The notes under the pieces: model-generated
The model's database searches: none
What the model saw: the letters and a program-made list of their open reading frames with translations, nothing else
What the model was told of the DNA's origin: nothing
Translations under genes and position numbers: made by a program
Assembly: GCA_902805845.1 (NCBI GenBank)
Contig: CADCUI010000019.1
Span: 1-48,451, forward strand
Direction: 5' to 3'
Source of the DNA: an uncultured Nocardioidaceae bacterium
GTDB taxonomy: Bacteria; Actinomycetota; Actinomycetes; Propionibacteriales; Nocardioidaceae
DNA: 48,451 bases
In this document: one piece after another, positions 29,942 to 45,923 of the stretch
Numbering within the stretch: the stretch's first letter is position 1
Layout: each line of letters begins with the position of its first letter

Positions 29942-30661
29942 GTGACGACTGCCGAGGGTTCTCCGACCACGATCCCCACGTCCGACGGCCCGATGCCGGC
30001 GTACCTCTGGAGCCCGCCCGGCGGGCAGGGTCCCGGGCTGCTGCTGCTGCAGGAGATCTTCGGCGTCAGCCGCTACATCAGGCGGCGTGGTGCCGCGCTC
30101 GCCGAGGCCGGCTACGTCGTCCTCGCTCCCGAGCTCTACTGGCGCCTGGACCCGGACCTGCCGCCGCTCGACGAGTCGGCACCCGACGTCGTGGACACCG
30201 CGATGGCCAGGGCCACGTCACTCGACTGGGAGGCGGCGGTGCGTGACGGGGTGGCGGCCCTGGCAGACCTGCGCGGGCGAGCCGGGGTGCACGGGGCCGG
30301 GGTCCTCGGCTTCTGCTTCGGCGGCGGACTCGGGTTCAACGTGGCCGCGGTCGCCGACCCCGACTGCCTCGTCAGCTACTACGGCTCCGCGCTGCCGCAG
30401 CTGCTGGAGCTGGCGCCGCGGGTGACCGCCCCGAGCCTGCACCACTTCGGGCTTGCCGACGACTACATCGAGGCGACCATGGTGCAGCGGATCCGCGACG
30501 CCGTGACCGCCGCGGGCGGACTCGTCGAGTTCCACACCTACGAGGGGGCGAACCACGCCTTCGACAACGACGACTTCTTCCTCCACCACCCCGACGCGTC
30601 GGCCCTCGCGTGGGAACGCACCCTGAGCTTCCTCGCCCGACACCTCCCTCCCCCCACCTAG
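29942..30661 (+). CDS. Dienelactone hydrolase family protein
   Basis: A 239-residue alpha/beta hydrolase. The nucleophile is Cys125 in GFCFGGG, as in dienelactone hydrolases; Asp in FGLADDYI and His in GANHAFDN complete the triad. LLLLQEIFGVSRYIRRR holds the conserved Glu that gates the Cys. The substrate could be a dienelactone from aromatic catabolism or another ester; no pathway genes are nearby. It sits between DUF4233 and ndk, an insertion in the conserved folC-DUF4233-ndk order. The start is GTG 29942 (leaderless spacing). Its TAG stop shares its last base with the first copy of the repeat array. Confidence 0.93.
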   Translation: MTTAEGSPTTIPTSDGPMPAYLWSPPGGQGPGLLLLQEIFGVSRYIRRRGAALAEAGYVVLAPELYWRLDPDLPPLDESAPDVVDTAMARATSLDWEAAVRDGVAALADLRGRAGVHGAGVLGFCFGGGLGFNVAAVADPDCLVSYYGSALPQLLELAPRVTAPSLHHFGLADDYIEATMVQRIRDAVTAAGGLVEFHTYEGANHAFDNDDFFLHHPDASALAWERTLSFLARHLPPPT

Positions 30662-30743
30662 CCGAGTCGGCGCTTACGCACGCCGATCCCCGCCGAGTCG
30701 GCGCTTACGCACGCGGCTCCCCGCCGAGTCGGCGCTTACGCAC
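30661..30743 (-). repeat. Family 1 repeat array, copies 1-3 (minus orientation)
   Basis: Three identical 21-nt copies at 30661-30681, 30692-30712 and 30723-30743, each separated by 10 nt (period 31). Read on the minus strand, each is GTGC-GT followed by the 15-nt core AAGCGCCGACTCGGC. The core ends in the odd palindrome GCCGACTCGGC. The first copy overlaps the dienelactone hydrolase stop by one base. The spacers (gccgatcccc, gcggctcccc) are partly alike. Confidence 0.93.
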
Positions 30744-30763
30744 GCCCCGGCGGTGGCCATGCC

Positions 30764-30816
30764 GTGCACAAGCGCCGACTCGGGCCGTTTCGGCCGTGCA
30801 CAAGCGCCGACTCGGC
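30764..30816 (+). repeat. Family 1 repeat array, copies 4-5 (plus orientation)
   Basis: Copies at 30764-30784 (last base G instead of C) and 30796-30816, period 32. These have GTGC-AC before the core AAGCGCCGACTCGGC, a two-base difference from copies 1-3. Copy 4 faces copy 3 across 20 nt, and 18 of the 21 positions can pair, forming a very strong hairpin. Copy 5 covers the expected -35 position of ndk. Confidence 0.93.
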
Positions 30817-30832
30817 GGAACCGGGGACGCCG

Positions 30833-30838
30833 TAGGGT
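30833..30838 (+). promoter_or_regulatory. -10 element, leaderless ndk
   Basis: TAGGGT, then 6 nt, then ATG 30845. With a 17-bp spacer the -35 would be 30810-30815, inside repeat copy 5. Confidence 0.52.
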
Positions 30839-30844
30839 GCGGCC

Positions 30845-31273
30845 ATGCCTGCTCAGCCCCCGCCCGTCCAGCGCACGCTCCTCCTCCTCAAGCCCGACGC
30901 CGTACGCCGCGGACTGGTAGGCGCGATCCTGGGGCGGTTCGAGCGTCGGGGCCTGCAGATCGCCGCGATGGAGATGCGGACCATCGACGAGGCGTTGGCC
31001 GACCAGCACTACGCCGAGCACGTCGAGCGCGACTTCTACCCGCCCCTGCGCGCGTTCGTCACCTCCGGGCCGCTGGTCGCCGTGGTTCTCGAGGGTGACG
31101 AGGCGATCGAGGTCGTGAGAGGCATCAACGGTGCCACCGACGGCCGCAAGGCCGCGCCCGGGACCATCCGCGGGGACTTCTCGCTGTCCAACCGGGAGAA
31201 CCTCGTGCACGGCTCGGACTCGGAGGAGTCGGCAGAGCGCGAGATCGGCATCTGGTTCCCCCACCTGGACTGA
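30845..31273 (+). CDS. ndk: Nucleoside diphosphate kinase
   Basis: A 142-residue NDP kinase transferring phosphate from ATP to NDPs. The phosphorylated His122 is in the signature NLVHGSDS (119-126). TLLLLKPDAVRRG and RDFYPPLRAFVTSGPLVAVV (in pieces) are the usual conserved blocks. Length and motifs are normal; the N-terminus carries five or six extra residues (MPAQPPPV). In other actinobacteria ndk follows folC-DUF4233; here it is bracketed on both sides by family 1 repeats and probably has its own leaderless promoter. Confidence 0.97.
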   Translation: MPAQPPPVQRTLLLLKPDAVRRGLVGAILGRFERRGLQIAAMEMRTIDEALADQHYAEHVERDFYPPLRAFVTSGPLVAVVLEGDEAIEVVRGINGATDGRKAAPGTIRGDFSLSNRENLVHGSDSEESAEREIGIWFPHLD

Positions 31274-31309
31274 CGGGGATCACAGGCGCGGTCCCTGGGC
31301 CCGGGCGAC

Positions 31310-31394
31310 GTGCACAAGCGCCGACTCGGCAGGGTTTGCGCGTGCACAAGCGCCGACTCGGCGGGGGTTGGGCGTGCACAAGCGCCGACTCGGC
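31310..31394 (+). repeat. Family 1 repeat array, copies 6-8 (plus orientation)
   Basis: Three identical 21-nt copies at 31310-31330, 31342-31362 and 31374-31394, each GTGC-AC plus the core AAGCGCCGACTCGGC, with 11-nt spacers and a 32-bp period. They begin 36 nt after the ndk stop and end 84 nt before mreB. The orientation is opposite to copies 1-3 upstream of ndk. Confidence 0.93.
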
Positions 31395-31435
31395 GGGGGC
31401 CGCGTGTCCTCCCGGACTGGGACGCTGCTGCTGCT

Positions 31436-31441
31436 TACTCT
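31436..31441 (+). promoter_or_regulatory. Candidate -10 of the mre operon
   Basis: TACTCT, 37 nt before ATG 31479. A start near 31448 would leave a leader of about 30 nt with GGGAG/GAG ribosome-binding bases. The -35 region is not convincing. It lies just downstream of the repeat array. Confidence 0.32.
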
Positions 31442-31478
31442 CCTTCCGAGACGGATGTGACGGGAGTGACGAGCAGCG

Positions 31479-32504
31479 ATGGCCAACAGCCTCATCGGTC
31501 GTGACATGGCCGTCGACCTCGGCACCGCGAACACCCTGGTCTACGTCCGCGGCAAGGGCGTCCTGCTCGACGAGCCCAGCGTCGTGGCGCTCAACACCAG
31601 CACCGGCGAGATTCTCGCCGTCGGCCACGAGGCGAAGCGCATGCTGGGCCGCACGCCCGACAACATCACCGCGATCCGGCCGCTCCAGGACGGCGTCATC
31701 GCCGACTTCGAGTCGACCGAGCAGATGCTGCGGTTCTTCATCCAGCAGGTGCACCGCCGCCGCTACTTCGCCAAGCCTCGGCTCGTCATCTGCGTCCCGA
31801 GCGGCATCACCGCGGTGGAGCAGCGGGCCGTCAAGGAGGCCGGCTACCAGGCCGGCGCCCGCCGCGTCTACATCATCGAGGAGCCGATGGCCGCGGCCAT
31901 CGGCGCGGGACTCCCTGTCCACGAGGCCACCGGCAACATGGTCGTCGACGTCGGTGGCGGCACCACGGAGGTCGCGGTCATCTCCCTCGGCGGCATCGTC
32001 ACCAGCCTGAGCGTGCGTACGGCGGGCGACGACATCGACCAGGCGATCATCGCGTGGATGAAGAAGGAGCACTCGCTCATGCTCGGCGAGCGCACCGCCG
32101 AGGAGATCAAGATGACCCTCGGCACCGCGTTCCCGCTCACCCGGGAACCGGAGGCCGAGGTGCGCGGTCGCGACATGGTGAGCGGGCTGCCCAAGACCGT
32201 CGTCGTCTCCAGCAGCGCGATCCGGCACGCGATCGAGGAACCGCTCAACGACATCATCGACGCCGTCCGCACGACGCTGGACCAGACTCCTCCCGAGCTC
32301 GCCGGCGACATCATGGACCGCGGCGTCGTCCTCACCGGCGGCTCTGCCCTGCTCCGTGGGCTCGACGAGCGGCTCCGGCACGAGACCGGCATGCCGGTCC
32401 ACGTCGCCGAGGAACCCCTCCACTCGGTCGCGATGGGCGCCGGCAAGTGCGTGGAGGAGTTCGAGGCGCTCCAGCAGGTCCTCGTCACCGAGCCCCGGCG
32501 GTGA
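31479..32504 (+). CDS. mreB: Rod shape-determining protein MreB
   Basis: A 341-residue bacterial actin. Phosphate-binding loops are visible as MAVDLGTANTLVYVRGKG (phosphate 1) and MVVDVGGGTTEVAVISLGG (phosphate 2); the adenosine site is VVLTGGSALLRGLDERL. YIIEEPMAAAIGAGL is the conserved hinge. MreB polymerises under the membrane and directs lateral wall synthesis or, in Streptomyces, spore wall assembly. It heads the operon mreB-mreC-mreD-mrdA-rodA. The gap from ndk holds the repeat array and a possible promoter. Confidence 0.98.
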   Translation: MANSLIGRDMAVDLGTANTLVYVRGKGVLLDEPSVVALNTSTGEILAVGHEAKRMLGRTPDNITAIRPLQDGVIADFESTEQMLRFFIQQVHRRRYFAKPRLVICVPSGITAVEQRAVKEAGYQAGARRVYIIEEPMAAAIGAGLPVHEATGNMVVDVGGGTTEVAVISLGGIVTSLSVRTAGDDIDQAIIAWMKKEHSLMLGERTAEEIKMTLGTAFPLTREPEAEVRGRDMVSGLPKTVVVSSSAIRHAIEEPLNDIIDAVRTTLDQTPPELAGDIMDRGVVLTGGSALLRGLDERLRHETGMPVHVAEEPLHSVAMGAGKCVEEFEALQQVLVTEPRR

Positions 32505-39295: not shown

Positions 39296-41278
39296 ATGCC
39301 CGTCACACCCGTCTCGTCGGAGCCGGTCACCGACTCCCTGTGGGACCGGCTGGAGCCGGTGCTGCCCCGGGTCCAGAAGCCGATCCAGTACGTCGGCGGG
39401 GAGCTGAACTCGACGCCGAAGGACTGGGACGCCGCGGAGGTCCGCTGGGCGCTGATGTACCCAGACGCCTATGAGGTCGGGCTTCCGAACCAGGGCGTGC
39501 AGATCCTCTACGAGGTGCTGAACGAGCAGGACTGGGCACTCGCCGAGCGCACCTACGCGGTGTGGCCGGACATGGAACAGGTCATGCGGGAGGAGGGCAT
39601 CCCGCAGTTCACCGTCGACCAGCACCGGCCGGTGCGTGCGTTCGACGTCCTCGGCGTCAGCTTCGCCACCGAGCTCGGCTACACGAACCTGCTGACGGCG
39701 CTGGACCTCGCCGGTATCCCGCTGCACGCGGCCGACCGGGGCGAGGGCGATCCGGTGGTGCTGGCCGGCGGTCACGCCGCCTTCAACCCCGAGCCGATCG
39801 CCGACTTCGTCGACGCGGCGGTGCTGGGGGACGGCGAGGAGGTGGTGCTCGCGATCTCCGAGGTGATCCGCGAGTGGAAGCGCGACCTGGTCGAGGGCGC
39901 CCTCTCCCCGGGCTCGGGGCGGTCGCCGAGGGACGAGCTGCTGTACCGGCTGGCAGTCTCCGGCGGGGTCTACGTGCCGAAGTTCTACGACGTCGAGCAC
40001 CTCCCGGACGGGCGCATCAGGCGAGTGGTGCCGAACACGTCCGGGGTCCCGTGGCGGGTGCACAAGCACACCCTGATGGACCTCGACTCGTGGCCCTACC
40101 CGCGCAAGCCGCTGGTACCGCTGGCGGAGACCGTGCACGAGCGGTTCTCGGTGGAGATCTTCCGCGGCTGCACGCGGGGCTGCCGGTTCTGCCAGGCGGG
40201 GATGATCACCCGGCCGGTGCGCGAGCGTTCGATCAGCACGATCGGTGACATGGTGGAGAACGGCGTCCGTGCCTCCGGGTTCGAGGAGGTCGGCCTGCTG
40301 TCGCTGTCCTCCGCCGACCACAGCGAGATCGGCGAGATCGCCAAGGGGCTGGCGGACCGCTACGAGGGATCGAACGTCTCCCTGTCGCTGCCGTCGACCC
40401 GGGTCGACGCGTTCAACATCACGCTGGCCGACGAGTTCTCGCGCAACGGGCGGCGATCCGGGCTGACCTTCGCCCCTGAGGGCGGGTCGGAGCGGATGCG
40501 CCGGGTCATCAACAAGATGGTGACCGAGGAGGACCTGATCCGCACCGTCGCCACGGCGTACTCCTCGGGATGGCGGCAGGTGAAGCTCTACTTCATGTGC
40601 GGGCTCCCCACCGAGACCGAGGAGGACGTGCTAGGGATCGCCGACCTGGCCAAGAAGGTCATCGCCAAGGGCCGTGAGGTCAGCGGCCGCAACGACATCC
40701 GCTGCACCGTGTCCATCGGCGGCTTCGTCCCCAAGCCGCACACGCCGTTCCAGTGGGCCGCCCAGCTCGACTGGGAGACCACCGACGAGCGGCTGCAGCG
40801 GCTGCGCGACGACGTGCGGGCCGACAAGCGGTTCGGCCGTGCGATCGGATTCCGCTACCACGACGGGCGGCCGGGGATCATCGAAGGGCTGCTGTCACGC
40901 GGTGACCGCCGGGTGGGCCGGGTCATCGAGGCGGTCTGGCGCGACGGCGGGCGGTTCGACGGCTGGAGCGAGCACTTCTCCTACGACCGCTGGGTCGCTG
41001 CTTGCGAGTCGGCGCTCGCCGGGACTCCGGTGGACCTCGACTGGTACACCATCCGCGAGCGTGAGTACGCCGAGGTGCTGCCCTGGGACCACCTCGATGC
41101 CGGCCTCGACCGCGACTGGCTGTGGGAGGACTGGCAGGACGCGCTGGACCCCGACGGCCGGGAGGTCGAGGACTGCCGGTGGAACCCCTGCTACGACTGC
41201 GGGGTCTGCCCGGAGATGGACACCGAGATCCAGATCGGTCCCACGGGTCAACGGCTCCTGCCGCTGGCCGTCCGCTGA
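39296..41278 (+). CDS. B12-binding-type radical SAM protein, TIGR03960 family
   Basis: A 660-residue protein. The N-terminal part (about 60-260) resembles a B12-binding-like domain (FDVLGVSFATELGYTNLL, GDPVVLAGGHAAFNPEPIADFVDAAVLGDGEE). The radical SAM cluster motif is Cys292, Cys296, Cys299 in CTRGCRFCQAG. The C-terminal third carries extra cysteines (CRWNPCYDCGVCPEMD), likely a second iron-sulfur site. In many bacteria this gene is paired with a TIGR03936-type gene and lies near rne; the substrate is not established. ATG 39296 has GAGG 6 nt upstream. Its stop codon overlaps the first family 2 repeat. Confidence 0.9.
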   Translation: MPVTPVSSEPVTDSLWDRLEPVLPRVQKPIQYVGGELNSTPKDWDAAEVRWALMYPDAYEVGLPNQGVQILYEVLNEQDWALAERTYAVWPDMEQVMREEGIPQFTVDQHRPVRAFDVLGVSFATELGYTNLLTALDLAGIPLHAADRGEGDPVVLAGGHAAFNPEPIADFVDAAVLGDGEEVVLAISEVIREWKRDLVEGALSPGSGRSPRDELLYRLAVSGGVYVPKFYDVEHLPDGRIRRVVPNTSGVPWRVHKHTLMDLDSWPYPRKPLVPLAETVHERFSVEIFRGCTRGCRFCQAGMITRPVRERSISTIGDMVENGVRASGFEEVGLLSLSSADHSEIGEIAKGLADRYEGSNVSLSLPSTRVDAFNITLADEFSRNGRRSGLTFAPEGGSERMRRVINKMVTEEDLIRTVATAYSSGWRQVKLYFMCGLPTETEEDVLGIADLAKKVIAKGREVSGRNDIRCTVSIGGFVPKPHTPFQWAAQLDWETTDERLQRLRDDVRADKRFGRAIGFRYHDGRPGIIEGLLSRGDRRVGRVIEAVWRDGGRFDGWSEHFSYDRWVAACESALAGTPVDLDWYTIREREYAEVLPWDHLDAGLDRDWLWEDWQDALDPDGREVEDCRWNPCYDCGVCPEMDTEIQIGPTGQRLLPLAVR

Positions 41279-41356
41279 GCCGCCCAACATGTTCGGTCGA
41301 GCCGCCCAAGATGTTCGGTCGAGCCGCCCAAGATGTTCGGTCGAGCCGCCCAAGAG
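41277..41356 (+). repeat. Family 2 tandem repeat, left array
   Basis: A directly tandem 22-bp unit, written in two pieces as GAGCCGCCCAAG and ATGTTCGGTC. Copies are at 41277-41298 (one C for G change), 41299-41320 and 41321-41342, plus a partial copy at 41343-41356. The array overlaps the TIGR03960 stop and runs to 6 nt before the next start codon; the AAGAG of the partial copy could serve as its ribosome-binding site. Confidence 0.95.
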
Positions 41357-41362
41357 CCTGAC

Positions 41363-41642
41363 GTGACTACCTCACCTGATCGTCTCCGCGAGCTGACCGA
41401 CGCGGTAGCCGAAGCCAGTGCAGGGGCTGGGCCCCTCGTGGAGATCGCTCCTGCCTGCGCCGTCGAGGCCGATGTCGACGCTGAGGAGGGCCTCCTGCAT
41501 GTCACATGGGCGCTGGACGGGGTCGCGCGAGGGTTCGACGTACCGGGTCCGCCTCGAACCGCAAGAGGATGCCGAGTCCCTAGCCAACCTGATCCGCTGG
41601 GAGATCATCGAGCGGGTGCGAACGGGTGAGTGGAAGGCCTGA
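41363..41642 (+). pseudogene. Small frameshifted gene of unknown function
   Basis: Starts at GTG 41363 as VTTSPDRLRELTDAVAEASAG and continues AVEADVDAEEGLLHVTWALDGVARG in one frame. A coherent continuation, STYRVRLEPQEDAESLANLIRWEIIERVRTGEWKA (in pieces), is in the +1 frame and ends at 41642. Removing one G from GGGG (41519-41522) or GGG (41531-41533) joins them into a protein of about 92 residues. Both halves have sensible composition, so it is either a recent pseudogene or a sequencing error in a homopolymer. No family is recognised. It lies between two genes that are usually adjacent and is bracketed by family 2 repeats of opposite orientation. Confidence 0.7.
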
Positions 41643-41650
41643 TCCACCTG

Positions 41651-41689
41651 CATCGTGGGCGGCTCGGGCAGACATCGTGGGCGGCTCGG
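41651..41689 (-). repeat. Family 2 repeat, right array (inverted)
   Basis: Two copies of CATCGTGGGCGGCTCGG at 41651-41667 and 41673-41689, period 22. They are the reverse complement of the left unit's core (GAGCCGCCCAAGATG) with one base changed (CATCG here, CATCT in the left array). They begin 9 nt after the stop of the small frameshifted gene. Confidence 0.9.
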
Positions 41690-41702
41690 CGGGCGGGGCG
41701 GC

Positions 41703-41708
41703 TAGGGT
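41703..41708 (+). promoter_or_regulatory. -10 element, leaderless TIGR03936-type gene
   Basis: TAGGGT, then 8 nt, then GTG 41717. The right family 2 array would lie across the -35 region (about 41680-41686). Confidence 0.48.
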
Positions 41709-41716
41709 GACGCACC

Positions 41717-42668: not shown

Positions 42669-45600
42669 TTGCTCGACGAGCAGACACCGGCCGTTGCCGG
42701 AAACACCGAGTCCACCGAGTCCACCGAGGCCCTGAGCGCGCCGGCCGAGCCGGACAGCGGCTCGCAGAGCCAGAACCCCGAAGGCGCAGACAGCGCCACC
42801 GGCGGCGTCGAGGCGCCGGAACGCCCACCAGCCCGGAAACGGGCTCCTCGCAAGAGCACGCCGCGGTCGCGAAAGGCCGCCGCACCGCCGGCCACCGCGG
42901 AGGAGACCGCAGCGGCTGCTCCCGACGTCGACCAGGCCGAGGCGGCTGGGGCCTCCACCGAGGCATCCGCCGAGGCGTCCACCAAAGCCCCCACCGAGGC
43001 ATCCACTGGGCCATCCCCGGCCGAGGAAGCGCCACCGCCGCGCAAGGCCCCCGCGAAGCGCGCGCCCCGGAAGAGAGCCGCCGCGAAGCCGAGCGCGGCG
43101 GCGGACGCCGGCGCGGCCGCCGAGCCCAACGCCGAGGGCATCGCCCCGGCGCCCGCCTCCACCGAGCCCGTGGCCGTCGGCGGGCCGACGGACGACACGG
43201 CGCCTGACCTGGCACCTGACCTGGCACCTGACCCGGCGAGCGACGCGGCTGCTGCGGCACCCGACGCCTTGCCGGCCGACGCCGAATCGGCCGACGCCGG
43301 ATCGACCGACGCCGGGCAGGGCACGGTGACCGCGCGCGCCAAGGCTGCGCCGCCGACCGTGCTGCTGTTCCAGCCGCCGGACCCGTCGCTGGCCACCGGG
43401 GCGGCCGGGACCGACCCAGTGGCCGACGCCGACGCCGACGCCGACGCGGACGCGGACGCCGCGGAGTCGCTGGCCGACCCGGAGGCCGCAGCTGTTGAGG
43501 CGGACGAGGCCACCGACGACCAGGACGAGACGGCCGACGCTGACGGCGCAGACGCTGACGGCGCCGACGGTGACGGCGCCGCCCGGCGGCGTCGCCGCCG
43601 CGGTGGCCGCCGTCGCCGCAAGCCCGGCGGCGACGCCGGTGGCGACTCAGGCGCGGAGGACACGGCCAACGATCCCGACAGAGCCACCGCCGCGGAGGGC
43701 CGGGCAGCGGACAAGGACGCCGACTCCGCTGCCGGCGGCGCCGACGAGCGGTCGGGAGCGGACGGGGAAGGCGAGTCCGGCACCAGCCGCCGCCGGCGGC
43801 GCCGTCGCCGTACCGGTGAGGGTGCCGACGGCGACTCCACCGACAACCCGGAGAACACCGTCACGCGGGTGCGCAAGACCAAGTCCGCCGAGGACGAGAT
43901 CACCGGCTTCTCCGGCTCCACCCGGCTGGAGGCCAAGAAGCAGCGCCGCCGGGAGGGCCGCGAGGCCGGCCGGCGACGGGCGCCGATCATCAGCGAGGCC
44001 GAGTTCCTGGCCCGCCGGGAGTCGGTCGACCGGGCGATGGTGATCCGGCAGCGTGACGACCTCACCCAGATCGCCGTCCTCGAGGACAAGGTCCTGGTCG
44101 AGCACTACGTCGCCCGGGAGTCGCAGACCTCGCTGATCGGCAACGTCTACCTCGGCCGGGTCCAGAACGTGCTGCCGTCGATGGAGGCCGCCTTCATCGA
44201 CATCGGCAAGGGCCGCAACGCGGTGCTGTACGCCGGCGAGGTCAACTGGGACGCCCTGGGCGCCAAGGACGGCAACCAGCGGAAGATCGAGCAGGTCCTC
44301 AAGTCGGGCCAGACGGTCCTGGTCCAGGTGAGCAAGGACCCGATCGGCCACAAGGGCGCCCGGTTGACCAGCCAGATCAGCCTGCCGGGGCGCTTCCTGG
44401 TCTACGTGCCCGACGGCACGACGAGCGGCATCTCCCGCAAGCTGCCCGAGAACGAGCGCAACCGGCTCAAGACGCTGCTCAAGGAGATCGTTCCCGAGAC
44501 GGCCGGCGTCATCGTGCGGACCGCGGCCGAGGGCGCCAGCGAGGCCGAGCTGACCCGCGACGTCGAACGCCTCAAGGCGCTCTGGGAGGACATCTCCGCC
44601 AAGGTCGACAGCGGCGGTTCGTCGTCCGCCCCGCAGCTGCTGTACGGCGAGCCCGACCTGACCCTCAAGGTGGTCCGCGACCTCTTCACCGAGGACATCG
44701 CCCGGCTGGTCGTGTCCGGGAGCGACGCCTGGGACATGGTCGAGGGCTACGTGCGCCACGTAGCACCCGACCTCGCCGAGCGGCTGGAGAAGCACGACGA
44801 CTCCGAGCGTGATGCCTTCGCCGAGTTCCGCCTCGACGAGCAGATCGCCAAGGCGTTGGAGCGCAAGGTGTGGCTGCCCTCGGGCGGCTCGCTGGTCATC
44901 GACCGGACCGAGGCGATGACGGTCGTCGACGTCAACACCGGCAAGTTCACCGGCTCGGGGGGCAACCTCGAGGAGACGGTCACCAAGAACAACCTCGAGG
45001 CGGCCGAGGAGATCGTCCGGCAGCTCCGGCTGCGCGACATCGGCGGCATCATCGTCGTGGACTTCATCGACATGGTGCTCGAGAGCAACCGTGACCTGGT
45101 GCTCAGGAGGCTGATCGAGTGCCTCGGGCGAGACCGGACACGACACCAGGTCGCCGAGGTCACGTCCCTCGGGCTGGTGCAGATGACCCGCAAGCGGATC
45201 GGCACCGGGCTCCTCGAGGCGTTCAGCGAGGTCTGCGAGGTCTGCCACGGCAGGGGGCTGCACGTCCGCGAGGCACCCGTGGACTCCCAGCGCAGGCAGG
45301 AGGAGGACGAGCCCCGTCGCGGCCGACGCAGCCGTGGTCGCGGGAAGGGCGAGGACTCCGGTGCGTCCTCGTCCGGCGGCAACGGGCGGGACACGGCGGC
45401 GAACGGCGACGGCGACACCGGCGTACGGCGGCCCACACCGGCGGAGTTCGCCGCGATGGCACGCTCAGAGCCGTCGGTCGCCGAGGCCAGGGCGGAGACG
45501 GTGGCGAACGGCCAGGTCGTCGAGGAGTCGTCGTCCGAGCCGGTCGCGCCTGCCGAGCCGCCGGTCGCGCCTGCCGAGCCGCCGGTCGCGCCTGCCGAGC

Positions 45601-45923
45601 CGCCGGTCGCGCCTGTCGAGCCGGCAGCGCCTGCCCCGCCCACAGCGGGTGCCGAGCCGGTCGCCCCGGCACCGGTAGCAGCGCCCCCGACGGTGCCTGC
45701 CGAGCCGCGCATCGTGACGTCCGTACGCCGCGTGGGAGCCCGGCGCCCCGCCGGCCCTCCCGTGCTTCCGACGGCCACCACACCGCCCGACTCCGACGGA
45801 GGCCCTGTCGAGCAGGCCACGGACTCCGACGGTGCGGAGGCCGACCCGTCGAGCGAGCCGCTCGTCGAGGTCGGCGGCCAGCCGCACGTGCCGGTGAAGA
45901 AGAAGGGTTCGCGCAAGCGCTGA
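42669..45923 (+). CDS. rne: Ribonuclease E/G family endoribonuclease
   Basis: A 1084-residue RNase E/G. Residues 1-430 are an Ala/Pro/Asp/Glu-rich disordered arm with Lys/Arg-rich patches (RKRAPRKSTPRSRKAA, RRRRRRGGRRRRKPGG). The S1 domain is at about 485-560 (SLIGNVYLGRVQNVLPSMEAAFIDIG in pieces), followed by the 5'-sensor region and the DNase I-like catalytic part with Asp754 (VVDVNTG) and Asp798 (VVDFIDM). The zinc-link cysteines are Cys856 and Cys859 (CEVCHG). The C-terminal arm contains EPPVAPA repeats and Arg/Gly patches. It initiates mRNA decay and rRNA/tRNA processing. The start is TTG 42669, supported by AGGAG five bases upstream. Confidence 0.95.
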   Translation: MLDEQTPAVAGNTESTESTEALSAPAEPDSGSQSQNPEGADSATGGVEAPERPPARKRAPRKSTPRSRKAAAPPATAEETAAAAPDVDQAEAAGASTEASAEASTKAPTEASTGPSPAEEAPPPRKAPAKRAPRKRAAAKPSAAADAGAAAEPNAEGIAPAPASTEPVAVGGPTDDTAPDLAPDLAPDPASDAAAAAPDALPADAESADAGSTDAGQGTVTARAKAAPPTVLLFQPPDPSLATGAAGTDPVADADADADADADAAESLADPEAAAVEADEATDDQDETADADGADADGADGDGAARRRRRRGGRRRRKPGGDAGGDSGAEDTANDPDRATAAEGRAADKDADSAAGGADERSGADGEGESGTSRRRRRRRRTGEGADGDSTDNPENTVTRVRKTKSAEDEITGFSGSTRLEAKKQRRREGREAGRRRAPIISEAEFLARRESVDRAMVIRQRDDLTQIAVLEDKVLVEHYVARESQTSLIGNVYLGRVQNVLPSMEAAFIDIGKGRNAVLYAGEVNWDALGAKDGNQRKIEQVLKSGQTVLVQVSKDPIGHKGARLTSQISLPGRFLVYVPDGTTSGISRKLPENERNRLKTLLKEIVPETAGVIVRTAAEGASEAELTRDVERLKALWEDISAKVDSGGSSSAPQLLYGEPDLTLKVVRDLFTEDIARLVVSGSDAWDMVEGYVRHVAPDLAERLEKHDDSERDAFAEFRLDEQIAKALERKVWLPSGGSLVIDRTEAMTVVDVNTGKFTGSGGNLEETVTKNNLEAAEEIVRQLRLRDIGGIIVVDFIDMVLESNRDLVLRRLIECLGRDRTRHQVAEVTSLGLVQMTRKRIGTGLLEAFSEVCEVCHGRGLHVREAPVDSQRRQEEDEPRRGRRSRGRGKGEDSGASSSGGNGRDTAANGDGDTGVRRPTPAEFAAMARSEPSVAEARAETVANGQVVEESSSEPVAPAEPPVAPAEPPVAPAEPPVAPVEPAAPAPPTAGAEPVAPAPVAAPPTVPAEPRIVTSVRRVGARRPAGPPVLPTATTPPDSDGGPVEQATDSDGAEADPSSEPLVEVGGQPHVPVKKKGSRKR
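45555..45617 (+). repeat. In-frame 21-bp tandem repeat in rne
   Basis: Three copies of a 21-bp unit encoding EPPVAPA at 45555-45575, 45576-45596 and 45597-45617 (last copy C to T), preceded by a shortened copy EPVAPA at 45537-45554. It lies in the disordered C-terminal arm, so copy number may vary between strains. Confidence 0.95.

Follow-up and report, generated by a model that had tools for sequence, protein, structure and literature searches.

Bacterial REPs, as far as the sections of PMC3733652 and PMC8266576 consulted here describe them, are short tagged palindromes that form inverted pairs, lie outside genes and mainly at gene 3′ ends, occur in many copies and bracket the gene of an enzyme. 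In the same sections of PMC3733652, a single enzyme class, the RAYT transposases, is given as associated with bacterial palindromic repeats, and no dedicated transposase is given for the REPs that carry the tag CGTC. The repeats analysed here share with the REP/BIME/REPIN elements and their RAYTs (TnpA-REP, "REPtrons") the anatomy of the repeat, its placement and the bracketed enzyme gene. They differ in that the enzyme here is a winged-helix protein with a Vsr-like nuclease domain, whereas a RAYT is a Y1 HUH transposase; in that the tag of approximately 8 nt varies between genomes, whereas REPs carry GTAG (or CGTC in the second class); in the strict period of 32 or 22 bp; and in that a single genome has two repeat families, each with its own enzyme of this type. 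With the CGTC-tagged REPs they have in common that they are REP-like without a known dedicated transposase, although the tag is different.

Two groups of proteins resemble the enzyme. Homing endonucleases cut and are copied, and the Vsr-like ones (EDxHD, e.g., I-Bth0305I), judging from the part of their literature used here, possibly have both the fold and this cut-and-be-copied logic in common with our system; however, the sole pointer to such enzymes was a non-significant match (E 0.58) to 3r3p, a protein of a mobile intron, and no intron or intein is present at these repeats. The AbiEi antitoxins and other AbiEi_4 proteins share the N-terminal AbiEi_4 domain; in our protein it is joined to a nuclease-like domain, and repeats flank the gene on both sides.

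The window, i.e., the whole stretch of 48,451 nucleotides from an uncultured Nocardioidaceae bacterium (the host), contains the repeats around ndk (30845–31273). The repeat unit consists of an 8-nt tag GTGCACAA and a 13-nt core GCGCCGACTCGGC, followed by approximately 11 variable nucleotides; counting the next G, the core is a quasi-palindrome, CGCCGA-C-TCGGCG. The left arm of the first array (30661..30743) lies directly against the stop codon of the hydrolase-like gene upstream and is composed of three minus-strand units (30661–30681, 30692–30712 and 30723–30743; unit GTGCGTAAGCGCCGACTCGGC, tag GTGCGTAA). Its right arm has two plus-strand units (30764–30784 and 30796–30816; unit GTGCACAAGCGCCGACTCGGC, tag GTGCACAA), and the final core base of the copy at 30764–30784 is G, not C. 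The second array (31310..31394) is located in the ndk–mreB spacer and includes three plus-strand units (31310–31330, 31342–31362 and 31374–31394) with the same unit GTGCACAAGCGCCGACTCGGC and tag. The left arm has start-to-start periods of 31 and 31, whereas those of the right arm and the second array are 32, and the tag changes from GTGCGTAA in copies 1–3 to GTGCACAA in copies 4–8. Both arrays lie between codirectional genes. The gene names used here and below (ndk, mreB, hydrolase-, relA-, DUF349-, 6-phosphogluconolactonase- and RbpA-like) rest on our own recognition and are presumed. A scan of the window allowing up to three mismatches gave 18 matches, compared with a mean of 7.07 and a maximum of 14 in shuffled sequences.

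An earlier sequence-only reading of this DNA had described eight nearly perfect copies, three minus and five plus, all outside the ndk coding sequence, with GT before the core in copies 1–3 and AC in copies 4–8. All eight were found in these orientations and none overlaps 30845–31273; the exact 15-mer is present in seven of them, and the GT/AC difference is real. The same reading had regarded the unit as kept by selection or recently copied, had listed a REP-like element and an RNA structure at gene ends among the possibilities, and had proposed a search of the host genome. This search revealed 98 copies of the exact 15-mer in the 3.28-Mb host assembly (48 and 50 per strand), 97 of them directly preceded by GTGNNN, while the reversed pattern used as a control was not found; for the GTGNNN-prefixed pattern with up to three mismatches the counts were 208 and 20, respectively. 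Thus, the element is genome-wide, and the views of a kept or recently copied unit and of a REP-like family (tagged palindromes, many copies, extragenic) both stood. What the earlier reading lacked was the rule of array order, the largely genome-specific tag and the nuclease gene bracketed by the same repeats. Its rejection of a CRISPR array and of an insertion sequence also held, given the bidirectional arrays, the short spacers and the gene-free repeats. For a CRISPR array, the points at issue are that the units of one array run both ways, that the spacers measure ~11 nt and that arrays of at most 8 units occur at many genome sites; for an insertion sequence, they are that the repeats mostly have no gene, that one canonical-core nuclease locus was found in the host and that the gene is mostly found at conserved places.

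To describe the arrays, we took 40 stretches around the host copies together with the window and called the genes in them with a codon-usage caller made for this analysis, which is not an annotation. This yielded 47 arrays of up to 8 units. In 45 of them, the minus copies are on the left and the plus copies on the right, so that the cores point outward, and each of the two exceptions is due to one mismatched site with an unrelated tag. This order is a rule of the repeat family. In the named genomes, 29 of the 111 arrays lack the strict order, partly because the core nearly equals its own reverse complement. Same-strand spacings of up to 110 bp were exactly 32 in 75 of 86 cases. Spacer identity was 0.51 within an arm and 0.41 between arrays, and several host arrays have, as in the window, a left arm with its own tag; from the more similar spacers and the arm-specific tags, the arms seem to grow by tandem duplication. 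Exact cores seldom fall inside called genes (4/108 in the host, 8/343 in the named genomes), and two of the 47 host arrays lie within a called ORF (L211).

The location at gene ends suggested earlier was upheld, since the arrays are mostly found in spacers at gene 3′ ends. Convergent-gene spacers made up 19 of the 42 host spacers with an array, compared with 18 of the 157 without (p 4e-6), and 56/95 compared with 56/553 in 103 loci of the named genomes. Divergent spacers were under-used in the named-genome loci (4/95 vs 101/553, p 2e-4), and the host loci showed the same, non-significant trend (4/42 vs 32/157). Many arrays start no more than approximately 10 bp from a stop codon. The side of the unit turned to the gene 3′ end, core or tag, showed no significant bias in the host loci (p 0.80) and a significant one in the named-genome loci (p 1.3e-4). 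When folded as RNA, the region 30720–30820 had a z score of −4.90, with none of 200 shuffles as good, while the arrays of one direction have unremarkable folds (31308–31400, z −1.50, 18/200; 30659–30745, z −0.39, 63/200). Scans of 30500–31600 detected neither U-tract terminators nor sigma-70 promoters. The sole Rfam match was a microRNA family scoring 32.3 against a gathering score of 200 bits, i.e., a long hairpin.

The possibility of a role local to ndk was examined in 22 loci besides that of the host, 20 of which remained after L362 and L373 proved unreadable by the gene caller; at L367, the gene picked is not ndk. No tandem array was found at ndk in these 20 genomes, and seven of them show isolated matches only, at one or two mismatches. 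In G004, which belongs to the genus of the host, the three genes are likewise present, but their spacers measure 79 and 147 bp (183 and 205 bp in the host) and contain no array. No array is present at ndk in G002 or G003 either; as G002 seems to have a gene other than the hydrolase before ndk, the clean comparison is that with G004. Relative to these genomes, the stretch before mreB continues as soon as the host array ends. By this comparison, the ndk arrays are gains in the host lineage, and the link of the repeats to ndk is incidental. A regulatory function at ndk, which only the flanking position of the arrays favours, is therefore highly improbable in view of the 98 exact copies genome-wide and of the 20 other genomes that have no tandem array there.

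Tandem pairs of the identical core occur in 52 of 341 genomes of the family (control, 0), and among the matches listed, the named genomes with such pairs are mostly Nocardioides. With a degenerate core, pairs occur in 122 of 341, some of them by chance. In relatives, the core is combined with other tags or has itself diverged; the tag is largely genome-specific. G003, of the same genus, has 66 degenerate-core pairs; those listed mostly combine the tag GTGAAGAT with the core GCGACGGCTCGG or GCGACGGGTCGG, like the repeats at the nuclease gene of that genome (L297).

The partner of the repeats was found by clustering the array-adjacent genes in the named-genome loci. One family stood between arrays, a protein of ~320 aa (about 322 aa). 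In the host, its gene is located on contig 68 (G000:C68, locus L238, 2436–3407, minus strand) between relA-like and DUF349-like genes, with two minus units (<<) on the left and two plus units (>>) on the right. The N-terminus is an AbiEi_4 winged helix (PF13338, E 2.7e-9 in the host protein). The domain REase_MTES_1575 (PF18741), which is of the Vsr type according to the part of PMC3710099 consulted, was matched in all four proteins searched, one of them at 38.3 bits against a cut-off of 38.2 and the host protein at 19.7 bits, below the cut-off. The residues D245, E256, H263, D271 and R274 are invariant in 92/92 nucleases, and D258 is present in 80/92. PADLOC gave weak matches to AbiEi models, no NCBIfam family came near its own cut-off, and the best PDB profile matches (E 0.21–0.73) were not significant; a structure model from three sequences (pLDDT 49) was too poor to use. 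No homologues of the host nuclease were found in plasmids and phages at E 1e-20 and 1e-10. A profile search with four proteins detected relatives in 259 of the 341 family genomes at E ≤ 1e-45. Some matches with an in-frame internal stop were seen in G210, G270, G337, G288, G108, G111, G112 and G117; decayed copies of the nuclease may exist.

The bracketing of the nuclease gene was examined by looking for an ungapped inverted match between its two flanks with a score of at least 16, for nucleases of at least 300 bits. Inverted repeats were present on both flanks of 79 of 86 nuclease genes, and seven nucleases had none; of the 117 further genes called at these loci, not one had them. These 86 are kin and not independent trials. 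They remained after the removal of L290, which had no called gene, and of two proteins below 300 bits from the first 30 loci by score, taken unselected, and 59 more among the matches listed; two batches of the latter followed roughly the listing order with skips, and the third was chosen by eye, leaning to repeat-bearing genomes. In the 30 top-scoring, unselected loci, 28 nucleases were bracketed. As the search profile was built from four nucleases found through their flanking repeats, we also counted without its members: the host nuclease is among the 86, as are probably two more (L245 and L246, which resemble L114 and L134), and without these three the result was 76/83. The same test applied to 37 genes of the window gave one bracketed gene, ndk, which two adjacent arrays happen to flank.

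The canonical core, with at most one mismatch and pointing outward on both sides, was found at 42/86 nucleases, compared with 0/125 other genes and 0/18 weaker relatives. Inward sites occur at 14/86 nucleases, some of which have outward sites too, and at two mismatches the numbers were 54/86 nucleases and 12/125 other genes. The bracketing cores of nucleases without the canonical core are mostly related to it, e.g., GCGCCGGGTCGG, GCGTCAGCTCGG and GCGACGGCTCGG. The arrays lie at a median of ~83 bp before the nuclease start and 13 bp after its stop. The genome G326 has three nucleases, L245, L279 and L289, whose flanking repeats bear different tags, GTGAGAAC, GTGTGTTC/GTGCGTTC and GCGCAGAC, respectively.

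The tags of dispersed repeats were compared with those at the nuclease of the same genome, using one dispersed locus per genome in 18 genomes (21 at first, from which G129, G142 and G177 were dropped). The best pair agreed at 6.22 of 8 positions on average, compared with 3.55 in other pairings, and none of 10,000 permutations was as good. Exact matches occurred in 8/18 own pairings and in 5/306 others. The exceptions are G130, G132, G149 and G197, where the two tags agree at only 2–4 of 8 positions.

Nucleases that are at least 80% identical share approximately 7 to 8 tag bases, and those less than 60% identical approximately 2.7 to 3.0. In a Mantel test on the 47 loci where two or more canonical sites occur, the similarity of the tag was weakly correlated with that of the whole protein (r 0.095, 28/1000 permutations) and best with that of residues 1–60 (r 0.173, 0/500), while the C-terminal part was not significant (54/500). 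All usable alignment columns were tried; the winged-helix columns 36, 37, 47 and 53 stand out among others, of which column 150 is the top one. The host and G303 share the tag GTGCACAA although the identity of their nucleases is just 43% (by N-terminus, rank 25 of 91), which counts against a tight coupling of tag and protein.

The nuclease also co-occurs with the repeats. At E ≤ 1e-80, it was present in 41 of 44 repeat-rich genomes, i.e., those with at least 10 tandem pairs, and in 120 of 297 others (hand tally; Fisher p 8e-12). Of the three exceptions, G004 and G348 have weaker matches only and G335 has none at E ≤ 1e-45. G335 has 24 tandem pairs; its enzyme may have been lost or have diverged, or may fall into a gap of the assembly.

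The host has a second nuclease, of 312 aa (G000:C77, locus L341), and the repeat on both sides of its gene is another one, with a period of 22 bp. The 22-bp array that Tandem Repeats Finder reports in the window belongs to this second family. Its four minus-strand units (41276–41357, 22-bp period, core GGGCGGCTCG, the core that also brackets L341) sit after a gene ending at 41278 and form, together with two plus-strand units (41651–41688), the arrangement <<<<>> in the spacer 41279–41716. With a pattern built from L341 and the window, 14 clusters were counted in 250 kb of host DNA (the DNA around the first-family arrays plus the window). Two of them are at the nuclease, all have any minus units before any plus units, and the spacing is 22 bp in 31 of 32 cases. 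Fifty shuffled patterns gave no cluster in the same 250 kb. The system had been defined without this family, which provides its cleanest internal confirmation. The short tandem repeats at 42704–43581 and 45535–45664 lie within a called coding sequence (42669–45923) and look like ordinary low-complexity coding repeats.

The nuclease gene mostly stays where it is. The same upstream neighbour (6-phosphogluconolactonase-like) is present in 37 of the 86 nuclease loci and the same downstream neighbour (RbpA-like) in 44. Two or more canonical sites occur at 18 of 36 same-neighbour loci, and no two of these 18 share a tag (18 different tags). The conserved neighbours and the different tags indicate that the gene remains while the repeats turn over. 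Being mostly inherited in place, the nuclease behaves as a resident enzyme associated with REPs would, and unlike an insertion sequence that jumps; RAYTs are also mostly inherited in place. The relA/DUF349 spacer, which contains an array and the nuclease in the host, contains a << >> array and no nuclease at L168.

Taken together, we are highly confident that the repeats and the nuclease belong together. It is also probable, we infer, that the repeats are spread or homogenised through an action of the nuclease on them. The winged-helix N-terminus would read the tag and the Vsr-like domain would nick or cut at or near the palindromic core; repair of the break or replication would duplicate units in 32-bp steps and would, by homing or gene conversion, seed inverted pairs in new spacers, after which selection would leave copies mainly at gene 3′ ends. 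The repeats at ndk would then, with similar probability, be dispersed, non-autonomous copies of a REP-like family whose nuclease partner is encoded elsewhere. For a still wider proposal, we see an even chance: that this is a second, independently evolved REP system in which a mostly vertically inherited Vsr-type nuclease produces the dispersed palindromic repeats, maintains their uniformity and recognises a fast-changing tag by its winged helix, in which nuclease and repeats co-diverge, and of which several pairs can coexist in one genome. The partnership of repeat and enzyme appears to be of a new sort, in which a restriction-like nuclease takes the place of the RAYT in position and co-variation. 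The open-access titles and abstracts searched did not link AbiEi_4, MTES_1575 or DUF559 nucleases to dispersed repeats; subscription papers and preprints were mostly outside this scope and priority is thus uncertain. The variable tag on a near-constant core, with 18 different tags at 18 orthologous nuclease loci, amounts to a natural experiment in the joint change of a DNA-reading domain and its target.

The preference for convergent spacers (19/42 vs 18/157; 56/95 vs 56/553), the closeness to stop codons and the stable fold of 30720–30820 (z −4.90, 0/200) would also suit elements useful to the host at gene 3′ ends, i.e., bidirectional terminators or mRNA 3′ hairpins, with the nuclease as a passenger in such spacers. 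We consider this unlikely, as the one-direction arrays fold unremarkably (z −1.50 and −0.39), no U-tract terminator was detected by the scan, the spacers of relatives manage without arrays, and both the genome-specific tags and the bracketing of one gene family (0/117 others) are left unexplained. It is also unlikely that the protein is an AbiEi-like self-regulator or a part of a defence or toxin–antitoxin system, with the repeats at its gene as operators and the dispersed ones as regulatory or titrating sites, so that no nuclease-driven spreading takes place. The AbiEi_4 domain, the weak PADLOC matches and the distances of the arrays from the gene (a median of ~83 bp on the start side, 13 bp on the stop side) fit it. 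However, the nuclease residues are invariant, the repeats occupy both ends of the gene and not the promoter alone, and their tandem, genome-wide and fast-changing nature looks like the result of copying. Movement by a RAYT (Y1, HUH) transposase, as for classical REPs, would account for tagged palindromes, inverted pairs and the 3′-end location, all features of REPs in the sections of PMC3733652 consulted. PF01797 at E ≤ 0.001, however, was absent from the host and from all 44 repeat-rich genomes, while 5 of 14 controls were positive, and this origin is scarcely credible.

The distant paralogs of the nuclease (less than 100 bits) show a further pattern. Eight of 12 are flanked by inverted repeats (score of at least 16) of a different, palindromic kind (L343, L344, L345, L351, L352, L353, L354 and L357), several with palindromes like GTTTCCCCGG...CCGGGGAAAC. 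These are possibly a second class of repeats, or ordinary terminators.

Across the phylum, 23 of 396 genomes have a nuclease relative at E ≤ 1e-30. Inverted matches with a score of at least 16 were present at 17 of 28 called genes, three of them from Nocardioidaceae, a count that leaves out the first locus of the host. The bracketing of these more distant relatives suggests that the system extends beyond Nocardioidaceae; the clearest cases are L382, from the same family, and L383 and L384, from other families. Further, different inverted repeats bracket the nuclease relatives of this and other actinobacterial families at L382–L384, L387, L391, L394, L406, L409 and L410.
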